Of a stretch of 49,002 bases of DNA, positions 6,934 to 44,918 are shown in pieces. Numbering within the stretch: the stretch's first letter is position 1; every line of letters starts with the position of its first letter. Source of the stretch: Bacteroidota bacterium (lineage in GTDB: Bacteria > Bacteroidota > Bacteroidia > Chitinophagales > UBA10324). The stretch is from NCBI GenBank assembly GCA_014190575.1, contig BJGQ01000022.1, forward strand, positions 1 to 49,002, read 5' to 3'. The notes under the pieces were generated by a model that saw only the letters and a list, made by a program, of their open reading frames with translations, searched no databases and was not told where the DNA came from. The position numbers were made by a program, and so were the translations under genes.

Positions 6934-6958
6934 AGTCTTCGACAAGCTCAGACTGACA
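6934..6958. repeat. REP-like hairpin repeat, copy 1
   Basis: AGTCT-TCGACAAGCTC-AGACT followed by GACA. The core TCGACAAGCTC and the trailing GACA recur twice at 42531-42601 with different but still complementary stems, which marks this as a dispersed hairpin repeat and not chance. It sits in the 218-base gap between the Smr gene start and the methyltransferase gene. Confidence 0.75.
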
Positions 6959-6987
6959 GAATTAAATAATGTCAATGTCACACTTAG

Positions 6988-7002
6988 TCCGCCATCGGCG
7001 GA
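6988..7002. repeat. GC-rich hairpin TCCGCC-ATC-GGCGGA
   Basis: A perfect 6-base-pair GC stem with a 3-base loop in otherwise AT-rich DNA, 30 bases from the REP-like hairpin at 6934. It has no U-run and is 60 bases before the methyltransferase start. It may be a second dispersed repeat type or part of that gene's 5' leader. Confidence 0.5.
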
Positions 7003-41667: not shown

Positions 41668-42900
41668 TTATCTTTTTGTTGGAGTCCAAGCTCCTGATTT
41701 TATTCCTTTTATGAATCTGAACCAACCAGTAAGCAAGGCAAAATTCATGGCGTAAAAATAGGCGATGAACTTCCAACCTGAATTTTTAAAACCCGATTTT
41801 TCCAATCCCAATTCAATTAATGGTGAAAGCAAAAAAAGTGATTGTATCACGACTAAAATTTTATAAAGAATAGTTCCATTTAAAATTACCAATGGAAAAG
41901 TAAACAGAAACGCAAGTACTATAAAAAAAGGTCCAAGCCATCTCAATACTTTGTGAGAGAAAAAACAAAATGAAGTTGAGTTGAACCGCAACAATAAATT
42001 TTCGAAATGAATGAGATTTTGAAAATTGCCTGCTGAAATTCGCGCTTTGCGTTTGTACTCCTGTTTCCAGTCTTCGGAAACTTCTTCGTACGCAATGGCA
42101 TCGGGGTCGGCAATGGATTTAAAATTTTGTTTTAACACATTCATGCAGATAAAAAAATCATCCACCAGAAAATTTTCAGGAATTAGTTGATACAGGTTTT
42201 TCCGTAAAGCATAAAAACCACCAAAAGGACCAATCATACTCCCGAAATTTTTTCCTTCCAGAAATTTTATTCTGTTCTCGCGACTGATGTATGTTTTTTC
42301 CTGAATGGAAATTCCTTTGCCACTTGCTTTATTAATGATGTTGCCACCAACCAAACCAATTGTTGAATCGTTGAAGTGAGCAACCAATTTTTTTATTGCA
42401 TCCTTTTCAAATAAAATATTTGCATCAGTGAGCAGAATGATTTCGCCTGTTGCTTCTTTCACTAAATCATTTAACACGGCAGGTTTGCCGCGGCGGGCTT
42501 CAAAATTTCGGGTTTTGAATTCAAAGCGCTTGTCATCCTGAGCTTGTCGAAGGATGTTGGCATCAACGGGAATCACACTCTTCGACAAGCTCAGAGTGAC
42601 AGCATTTATTATTCCGCTTGTTGAATCGGAAGAACAATCGTTTCCAATAATTATTTCCAGTTTGTTTTTTGGATAATCACATTCGAAAATATTTTTAATT
42701 TTTTCTTCAATAACTTTTTCTTCGTTGAAAACCGATATAAGAATACTGACAGTTGGATATTGAATACTTGAAGTTGTAAATTGTTTACTTTTTCTATTTG
42801 TTGAAATGACTTCCAAAATCAATGGATATAAAACATACGAATAAAAAAGCAGCCCAACCGGAATCCAGAATATAAGTTGGAAGAATTGGTAACTACTCAT
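41668..42900 (-). CDS. Membrane glycosyltransferase, family 2, carrying a repeat insertion
   Basis: A 410-residue enzyme with an N-terminal membrane helix ([19 protein letters not shown]), a GT-A catalytic domain ([60 protein letters not shown]) and C-terminal helices. Residues about 100-123 ([20 protein letters not shown], then QDD) come from the hairpin repeat at 42531-42601 and interrupt the loop between the GNDCSSD strand and RRGK. The frame is kept, so the protein is probably still made. It adds sugars to a lipid or polymer at the inner membrane; donor and acceptor are unknown. Its ATG overlaps the next gene's stop (ATGA, 42897-42900). Confidence 0.87.
42531..42601. repeat. Paired REP-like hairpin repeats inside a glycosyltransferase gene
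   Basis: Two 26-base arms lie head to head. Arm 1 (42531-42556) contains CATCCT-GAGCTTGTCGA-AGGATG; arm 2 (42576-42601) contains CACTCT-TCGACAAGCTC-AGAGTG. Each is itself a hairpin, and they are near-reverse complements of each other. Stem bases differ between arms but stay complementary. The same element is at 6934. The arms read as LSLSK and RQAQDDK in the protein, a known signature of such repeats. Confidence 0.85.
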
Positions 42901-44108
42901 GCTTTTACAATTTCAGCATAAAAATTTAATAACTCTCCAACCAAAACACGGTAATCAAATTTTTGTTCAGCCAATTTTCTTGCTTCTGTTTCAAAACTAT
43001 TTCTCAGTTCTGCATTTGATAATAATTGAATCACATAGTTGGAAAACTCAGCAGCTTCATCAGCTATAAAAATATTCTTCCCGTTCTCAACCGGTAAACC
43101 TTCTGCACCTATTGTAGTTGAAACAATCGCCTTTCCGAACGACATACCTTCCATCAGCTTCACTCTTATTCCGCTACCAACATGCAAAGGGCAAATCATT
43201 ACCTGCTTCGATTGAATAAAAGAGGAGGCATTTTCCACCTCTCCGATCATCACTACCTTTTTTATTTTCTTCTGTTTCCATTCATCCGGAAAATTTCTTC
43301 CCGCCAAATACAATTTTGCTTCAGGAATTTCTTTTTGAATTGTTGGCCAACAGTTTTCAATAAACCATTCCAACCCCAAAATATTTGGTCGCCAATCCAT
43401 GCTGCCGATGTGAAAAACAGAATAAGCCTCACCCCTATTCCCTCTCCCAAGGATAGGGGAATTGTCGCTACCGATTTCGACACCATGTTCACAGGTGTGA
43501 ACAGGAATTTTGCAACCAAGATTCTTAAATGTTTCTGCATCGCGATTGCTAACAGGAACAATTGCATCATACTGATTGAGCATATTCAACTCAAATTGTT
43601 TCATGCGCTTTGCCATCAAAAGCAAATATTTTTTCTTCAGCCATGAACCTGATTTTGCTTCGCGCTCCCATATTTCATGTTCAACATTTTGAGTGCGCAA
43701 TACAATTTTAGCGTTCGAATATTTGCGAATAACCGGTACATACTGCGAAAGGTAAACACCTTCCAATTGCACCAAATCAAAATTTTGTTTTTGCAACAAT
43801 TGAATCAATTGATTTTCATATTCAACAGAATAAAAACGCTCGATGTTGTAACACCTTTTGCTAAATAGGTTAAGAAACATTTTTCCAAAGTGAACATTCG
43901 TATTTACATCAACACTTTTTATATCAGCAACATTTTTCCAATCATTCGGTACTAACGCCGGATGGCTGAAATGTTTGCGTGTGTTCATTGCAAGAATAGT
44001 CACCTGATGGTGGTGATAATGAAACCCTTTTGAATACATCCATATTCCAATCACCTCGCCATCTTTCGGCGGGTAAGGAAACTTTTTACAGAGTTGTAGG
44101 ATGTTCAT
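42897..44108 (-). CDS. Glycosyltransferase, GT-B fold (family 1/4-like), carrying a repeat insertion
   Basis: The ATG at 44108 (MNILQLCKKFPYPPKDGEVI) is the true start, giving 403 residues; longer readings add 116 residues of unrelated frame that overlaps the divergent gene. The N-terminal Rossmann half is followed by DLVQLEGVYLSQYVPVIRKY and RTQNVEHEIWEREAKSG. The C-terminal half has VFHIGSMDWRPNILGLEWFI, GEVENASSFIQSKQVMICPL and HVGSGIRVKLMEGMSFGKAI, the donor-binding EGM...G motif. Between GVEIG and VFHIG the segment SDNSPILGRGNRGEAYS is encoded partly by a second kind of hairpin repeat (43428-43460). It shares an ATGA overlap with the GT2 gene, so they act together in building a glycan. 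Confidence 0.87.
   Translation of the reverse strand: MNILQLCKKFPYPPKDGEVIGIWMYSKGFHYHHHQVTILAMNTRKHFSHPALVPNDWKNVADIKSVDVNTNVHFGKMFLNLFSKRCYNIERFYSVEYENQLIQLLQKQNFDLVQLEGVYLSQYVPVIRKYSNAKIVLRTQNVEHEIWEREAKSGSWLKKKYLLLMAKRMKQFELNMLNQYDAIVPVSNRDAETFKNLGCKIPVHTCEHGVEIGSDNSPILGRGNRGEAYSVFHIGSMDWRPNILGLEWFIENCWPTIQKEIPEAKLYLAGRNFPDEWKQKKIKKVVMIGEVENASSFIQSKQVMICPLHVGSGIRVKLMEGMSFGKAIVSTTIGAEGLPVENGKNIFIADEAAEFSNYVIQLLSNAELRNSFETEARKLAEQKFDYRVLVGELLNFYAEIVKA
43428..43460. repeat. GC-rich hairpin repeat inside a glycosyltransferase gene
   Basis: CCCCTAT (43432-43438) pairs perfectly with ATAGGGG (43453-43459) around TCCCTCTCCCAAGG, giving the sequence CCTCACCCCTATTCCCTCTC and onward. This matches the general form of dispersed 'CTCTCCC...GGGTGAGG' repeats known in many bacterial genomes. 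It encodes ILGRGNRGEA in the protein, atypical for the family. Confidence 0.65.
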
Positions 44109-44120
44109 TCGACGGCGAAT

Positions 44121-44152
44121 GTAATTTGATGATTTGGTAATTTGATGATTTG
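44121..44152. repeat. 16-base tandem repeat in the divergent promoter region
   Basis: GTAATTTGATGATTTG occurs twice in direct succession (44121-44136, 44137-44152), then a third, decayed unit ATAATTTGAAGATGAA. It fills the 66-base gap between the GT-B gene start (44108) and the GT2 gene start (44175). It could hold promoters or be a slipping element that changes spacing. Confidence 0.75.
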
Positions 44153-44174
44153 ATAATTTGAAGATGAAATACAA

Positions 44175-44918
44175 ATGATAAAAAATAAAAAAGTTGTTGT
44201 GGTGCTTCCGGCATACAATGCGGCTGCTACATTGGAAAAAACATATCGCGAAATTGATTTCAATATTGTGGATGAAGTGGTGTTGGTTGATGATGCCAGT
44301 AAGGATAACACTGCGGAAGTTGGTCGCAAGCTTGGAATCAAACACATCATTGTACATGAAAAAAATAAAGGCTATGGTGGCAACCAGAAAAGTTGTTACA
44401 ACAAAGCCCTTGAAATAGGTGCCGACATAGTAATCATGCTGCATCCCGATTATCAATATACTCCGTTACTTATTCCTGCAATGGCAAGCATTATAGCCAA
44501 TGATTTATATCCGGTGGTTTTGGGTTCACGAATTTTAGGCAAGGGTGCCTTGAAAGGTGGAATGCCGATGTATAAATATATTTTCAATCGCTTTTTAACC
44601 TTCTCACAAAATTTATTAATCGGTCAGAAACTTTCAGAATATCATACTGGTTATCGTTCATTCTCGAAAGAAGTTTTAACCAATATTAATTACATGGCGA
44701 ACAACAATGATTTTGTTTTCGACAATGAAATGCTCTCTCAAATTTTTATGGCCGGTTTTGAAATTGCTGAAGTCACTTGCCCGACAAAATATTTTGAAGA
44801 AGCAAGTTCAATAAATTTCTCGCGAAGTTTAAAGTATGGTCGCGGAGTGCTGCGTGTTTCGCTCCAACATTTTTTTCATAAGAAAGGAATTGTGAAGAAT
44901 AAGATTTATAGCATGTAG
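44175..44918 (+). CDS. Glycosyltransferase family 2 (dolichyl-phosphate-mannose-synthase-like)
   Basis: A 247-residue GT-A enzyme. It has VVVVLPAYNAAATLEKTYRE, the strand VDEVVLVDDASKDNTAEVGR with the DD metal-side acids, GYGGNQKSCYNKALEIGADI and VIMLHPDYQYTPLLIPAMAS, where DYQY stands for the D-x-D-like site. Downstream GSRILGKGALKGGMPMYKYI and LSEYHTGYRSFSKEVL are typical of the dolichol/polyprenyl-phosphate sugar transferase group. No membrane helix is seen, so it is cytoplasmic and acts at the inner face. It is divergent from the other two glycosyltransferase genes, and all three probably belong to one surface-glycan pathway. Confidence 0.9.
   Translation: MIKNKKVVVVLPAYNAAATLEKTYREIDFNIVDEVVLVDDASKDNTAEVGRKLGIKHIIVHEKNKGYGGNQKSCYNKALEIGADIVIMLHPDYQYTPLLIPAMASIIANDLYPVVLGSRILGKGALKGGMPMYKYIFNRFLTFSQNLLIGQKLSEYHTGYRSFSKEVLTNINYMANNNDFVFDNEMLSQIFMAGFEIAEVTCPTKYFEEASSINFSRSLKYGRGVLRVSLQHFFHKKGIVKNKIYSM

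Follow-up and report, generated by a model that had tools for sequence, protein, structure and literature searches.

REP sequences with a GTAG tag have RAYTs (HUH tyrosine transposases, TnpA-REP) as partners (PMC2817692, PMC8266576). The CGTC REPs of Bacteroidetes, Chlorobi, and alpha-proteobacteria sometimes lie inside genes, do not flank tyrosine transposases, and "apparently lack a dedicated transposase"; their stems of 8-9 bp start with A-T, their loops are 4-5 nt long, and they carry a CCA tail (Di Nocera et al. 2013, PMC3733652). In-frame palindromes have been described in Rickettsia and among intragenic REPs (PMC10969869, PMC3733652). In the accounts that later papers give of them, the Rickettsia palindromic elements (RPEs) are selfish sequences of about 150 bp that lie in frame in protein genes (Ogata et al. 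2000, 2002; cited in PMC10969869, PMC3733652), and Di Nocera placed two of them, RPE-4 and RPE-6, in the CGTC class (PMC3733652).

The window (the whole stretch of DNA that we analyzed, 49,002 nt) is contig C22 of a 3.19 Mb Bacteroidota assembly (91 contigs, 98% complete) whose nearest named relatives are metagenome assemblies labeled Chitinophagaceae, Chitinophaga pinensis, and Bacteroidetes bacterium. A minus-strand gene at 41668..42900, identified by its domain matches (PF00535, PF13632) as a GT2-family glycosyltransferase of 410 aa, contains a pair of hairpins: the left one (TGTCATCCTGAGCTTGTCGAAGGATG; 42531..42556, plus strand) is read within the glycosyltransferase gene and points its TGTC tag outward, and the right one (CACTCTTCGACAAGCTCAGAGTGACA; 42576..42601, plus strand), read by the gene as VTLSLSK, has an outward TGACA tag, with a spacer at 42557..42575 separating the two. 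As an inverted repeat (42531-42557 / 42575-42601) the arms measure 27 nt, are 85% complementary, and leave a gap of 17 nt; each is itself a hairpin, with stems CATCCT/AGGATG and CACTCT/AGAGTG around the core TCGACAAGCTC. TGTCA forms the outer end of both arms, so that by the TGTC-end tag convention the pair stands tail to tail with tags outward, a correction to the head-to-head pair of the initial annotation; most other hairpin pairs of this genome have their tags inward. A third, intergenic copy (AGTCTTCGACAAGCTCAGACTGACA; 6934..6958, plus strand; stem AGTCT/AGACT) has an inverted but degenerate partner after it, near 6976-6989, and its dimer type recurs at two other loci (L009, L015). The inverted hairpin pair and third copy reported in the initial annotation, which was made from the sequence alone, are thus real.

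These hairpins resemble CGTC REPs in being short palindromes with a CGTC/TGTC tag at one end, a stem beginning with A-T, and dimers of opposite orientation, as well as in having no association with tyrosine transposases (hairpins at 2/31 Y1 loci). They differ in their stem of about 5-6 bp, their core of 11-12 nt (TCG..CTC), and the lack of a CCA tail, and a GIY-YIG gene is associated with them, whereas no dedicated enzyme was found for CGTC REPs. Because stem and loop size fall outside the published class, we call the family a TGTC-tagged relative; a CGTC-specific hairpin finder with 6-bp stems failed to detect the family itself. Like REP/BIME elements with their RAYTs, they are non-autonomous hairpins that gather near one small gene and may be mobilized by its product, but that partner is a GIY-YIG nuclease, the tag is TGTC instead of GTAG, and copies of the repeat surround neither Y1 transposase gene of this genome and occur at only 2 of the 31 Y1 loci. 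With RPEs they share in-frame insertion in coding genes, absence from homologues, and the addition of peptide segments at tolerated sites; unlike the rickettsial elements of about 150 bp, their units are 26-84 nt long, occur in free-living Bacteroidota, recur at signal-peptide and sorting-domain sites, and have a partner nuclease. Since RPE-4 and RPE-6 belong to the CGTC class, a link between RPEs and these hairpins is possible. The nuclease belongs by sequence to the same family (PF01541) as GIY-YIG homing endonucleases and UPF0213/YazA.

The core TCGACAAGCTC, allowing up to one mismatch, occurs three times in the window against 0.55 expected. Across the whole genome it was found 21 times, and its reversed pattern never; the 15-mer CTTCGACAAGCTCAG, searched with as many as three mismatches, gave 94 matches and its control 41. 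These genome counts reject a chance match as the origin of the family and uphold the annotation's view of a REP-like repeat with further copies (21 exact cores against 0; about 50 copies in all), although two untagged copies at L001, encoding ASTSSAG in a repeated surface-protein motif, are probably due to chance. Many copies are intergenic, and most copies in this genome, whatever their position, have TGAC downstream. Sister genomes contain 120 (G002), 53 (G004), and 44 (G005) hairpin copies, where the controls give 1, 2, and 2; the family is patchy, being present in 45 of 99 relatives. In a set of 50 distinct genome copies with at most two mismatches, the two core-adjacent stem pairs show Watson-Crick pairing in 45 and 44 copies; shuffling gave means of 13.1 and 20.0, and 0 of 5000 shuffles reached such values. 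The third pair shows no covariation (28/50 copies), so the covarying stems of the initial annotation hold for the two inner pairs and not for the third.

Comparison with relatives places the inserted stretch approximately at 42528..42601 (minus strand), or V101-K124 of the glycosyltransferase. This is a real insertion: it is missing from five relatives (G001, G003, G004, G005, and G010), all of which have the same loop shorter by 20 residues, and it is common to G002, whose insert at the same site is identical to that of the window in 65 of 74 bases. New protein sequence was therefore added, and in frame, as had been claimed; the element itself encodes about 24 residues, the gain originally given, but the net gain relative to relatives without the repeat is 20 residues (60 nt). 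The 71 nt of the core do not divide by three, so the frame was kept only together with a small change in the flank. The comparison of glycosyltransferase genes yielded no clean target-site duplication; the flank is of low complexity and varies between relatives. Being common to the window's genome and G002 and missing in five others, the insert either entered before the split of these two or was lost elsewhere. The structure model has a mean pLDDT of 76, with most of the surrounding fold at about 80-90; residues 108-123, between helix 92-107 and strand 127-133, form its lowest-confidence loop (pLDDT <50). The left hairpin of G002 is degraded in both core and stem, with the reading frame still open. 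Because that copy has lost pairing on one side, selection on the hairpin structure, one of the two options given by the annotation, is not supported at this locus.

In-frame insertion recurs within the genus. Six copies in the window's own genome (L016, L044, L097, L101, L105, and L106, the last exemplified by MKKIFSLLLVTLSLSKGYAQ) lie in frame at signal-peptide ends, where they read VTLSLSK followed by a putative AQ cleavage site. A crude filter flags further putative signal-peptide copies in G002 (7), G005 (2), and G004 (4), with L285 doubtful; the sister-species cases include L321, L327, L335, and L279, and several signal-peptide copies occur in the same gene across two to four species. Another six copies, in G002 and G005, are read in frame within the C-terminal region of different surface proteins (L345, L348, L313, L324, L369, and L389); all five of these proteins that were tested proved to have the T9SS sorting domain TIGR04183. 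The neighboring glycosyltransferase gene (42897..44456, minus strand), which adjoins the host gene, carries the hairpin in frame in the same loop in G002 (in one frame) and in G004 and G005 (on the other strand); in the window that loop is occupied in frame by a palindrome of another family, CCCCTATCCTTGGGAGAGGGAATAGGGGTGAGG (CCCCTATCCTTGGGAGAGGG), at 43427..43459 (minus strand). In G021 and G060, genomes of two different families, a whole nuclease cassette is in frame inside HsdR, a type I restriction R subunit, at the same helicase-domain place, between the ResIII and SWI2/SNF2 matches (L121, 278-2800; L216, 1-2715). At two other loci (L204 and L259), GIY-YIG reading frames continue in frame into a downstream PurK or PLP-dependent enzyme.

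In relatives, dense hairpin clusters flank small GIY-YIG genes (PF01541, E 2e-19) of a UPF0213-like subfamily marked by the motif QAIAxEKQIKGWSRKKKEAL. A search with the G002 protein found subfamily matches in 44 of 298 genomes of the order. On contig C351 of G002 (L172, L193), nine hairpin copies surround the nuclease gene, which encodes 100 aa, some with arms identical to those of the window; the right-arm sequence CACTCTTCGACAAGCTCAGAGTGACA is among those found unchanged around the G002 gene. We scored loci for hairpins defined as TCG-N-CTC with at least four further paired bases, using the reversed sequence as control. By this definition, 28 of 30 subfamily loci in the order hold 105 hairpins (control, two hairpins at two loci), and the remaining two, L200 and L201, have hairpins with mismatched stems. 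A phylum sample gave 112 hairpins at 23 of 30 loci against one in the control, and at the other seven, inspection showed longer-looped sister elements, either GTTCGAG..TCGAGAAC or the L255 variant. The two samples combined contain 217 hairpins, and their reversed controls 3. The same definition picked out only 1 of 19 other GIY-YIG loci, and the exact core type is found at 8/30 GIY-YIG loci vs 1/31 Y1 loci. The association of the hairpin family with this nuclease gene is specific and strong. The window's own genome has no match to the subfamily nuclease at E 1e-12, so its copies are orphans; its PF01541 matches comprise two long ORFs, of 609 and 459 aa, and one broken gene near tRNA-like sequence. 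A different GIY-YIG group (L160, L164, L165, L167, L169, L171, and L173) adjoins tRNA-like sequence and is bordered on each side by repeated pieces of tRNA, a pattern that would fit insertion at tRNA genes.

At 45 of 61 loci a hairpin stands on both sides of the nuclease gene within 450 nt, with median gene-hairpin distances of 65 and 60 nt, and in 24 of these the tags point outward, which is the orientation of the window pair. The catalytic residues Y10, Y20, G22, R30, and H34 are present in 63-64 of 64 nuclease proteins and E68 in 63 of 63; the solved homologues are the UPF0213 proteins BH0048 (1zg2) and EF2693 (1ywl). Core length type changes 11 times on the nuclease tree against about 16 times in shuffles, a clustering that partly reflects host phylogeny on a tree short of columns. 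At the QueF-UvrA locus, the hairpin-gene-hairpin DNA of G048 and G081 is 93% identical, and at the same place G097 (L268) lacks the gene and has two hairpins separated by 192 nt, with both ends inverted relative to the L267 cassette, as a miniature derivative of the cassette would be expected to look. G035, which is not syntenic at the QueF locus, provided no empty site for the whole cassette. Six plasmid-borne homologues were inspected. In Sphingomonas (L229), TTCGACTTCGCTCAG elements of the same core type lie on both sides of the nuclease, and in Methylobacterium (L230, L231), inverted look-alike elements (TTCGAGG..CCTCAGGATGAGG) do so; Spirosoma (L233, Bacteroidota) has TGTCATCC-type palindromes, and the UPF0213 homologues of Planktothrix (L232) and Legionella (L234) have none of such hairpins at these loci.

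We propose that the glycosyltransferase insert is a miniature, non-autonomous copy of a TGTC-tagged hairpin element whose autonomous partner is a small GIY-YIG nuclease, inserted where a loop tolerates it, and we regard this account as probable. The full unit would consist of a tagged hairpin, about 60 nt, the nuclease gene, about 60 nt, and a second tagged hairpin, and the window copy would be the same outward-facing pair minus the gene. The nuclease may recognize the hairpin and cut or nick DNA, and so spread the hairpin, either through cleavage of the target followed by copying during repair, or by peel-and-paste. Because the window's genome is without the nuclease gene, its copies would have been made by a lost or foreign enzyme. 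The element may have entered the glycosyltransferase before this species and its sister G002 diverged, and the insert may have been retained because its open reading frames merely lengthen a flexible enzyme loop. That the nuclease mobilizes the hairpins appears the most economical reading. Weighing against it are the several UPF0213 homologues without such hairpins, the missing nuclease gene of the window's genome, and the lack of a clean target-site duplication; the nuclease might also be a passenger, or a homing gene for which hairpins serve as landing sites. The strongest rival, which we judge unlikely, is of the latter kind: GIY-YIG enzymes are known homing endonucleases, and a free-standing one might have landed in or between existing hairpins that spread otherwise. 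This agrees with the other GIY-YIG group of these genomes, adjoining tRNA-like pieces, and with the common occurrence of hairpin genomes without the nuclease gene, the window's included; however, the nuclease is flanked by whole hairpins, with tags outward in the largest class of loci, core type changes with nuclease clade, and there is a derivative that has both cassette ends and no gene. Nor did any other gene turn up with the hairpins, in systematic tests that covered Y1 and GIY-YIG genes.

The initial annotation had named RAYTs as the mobilizing enzymes, and a classic REP/BIME moved by a Y1 transposase would account for the hairpin shape, the opposite-orientation dimers, and the genome-wide copies. 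The genome check that it suggested did reveal two Y1 transposase genes (L022, L023), but palindromes of other kinds (TTCGTCCCGTAGGGACGAA; CAACCACTTCGTGGTTG and similar) flank both, and these probably represent separate REP families. Only 2 of 31 Y1 loci carry the hairpins, against the 28 of 30 GIY-YIG loci, and three genomes with hairpin copies (G001, G014, and G015) yield no Y1 match at E <= 0.001. We therefore reject a RAYT as the partner; this rival is largely refuted and hardly credible. Scarcely more plausible is a host process, in which template switching, gene conversion, or DNA uptake copied the hairpins and a host role such as transcription termination or mRNA end protection kept them, with the nuclease incidental or regulated by the hairpins. 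Hairpins can stabilize RNA and many copies are intergenic, in keeping with such a process, which nevertheless leaves unexplained both the tie to one nuclease subfamily across many families of the phylum and the repeated in-frame insertions in coding sequences.

The proposed way in which these repeats spread and add protein sequence is probably previously undescribed. In the literature searched, whose scope excluded most subscription journals and all bioRxiv preprints, we found no paper that linked GIY-YIG genes to such repeats, tied UPF0213 proteins to palindromic repeats, or combined GIY-YIG with "repetitive extragenic palindromic"; RepRanger 2025 does not mention GIY. The sequence CTTCGACAAGCTCAG appears in no paper of that literature, and the six matches for other fragments were unrelated by title. 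In its broadest form, which we hold to be about evenly balanced between right and wrong, our proposal is that a separate class of GIY-YIG-driven mobile palindromes exists in many Bacteroidota families and in alpha-proteobacteria, that its nuclease is the missing enzyme of the CGTC REPs and perhaps that of the RPEs, and that the class is a recurrent source of new in-frame residues in signal peptides, T9SS sorting domains, and loops of enzymes.

With a GIY-YIG gene flanked by hairpins at nearly every locus examined, the question of the missing CGTC-REP transposase becomes directly testable. If the nuclease mobilizes the hairpins, a homing-type nuclease would do for them what RAYTs do for GTAG REPs. 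The repeated use of the hairpins in frame, at signal-peptide ends, in sorting domains, and in one glycosyltransferase loop, provides a countable model of selfish DNA that adds protein sequence, and extends to free-living bacteria a process so far best known from Rickettsia.
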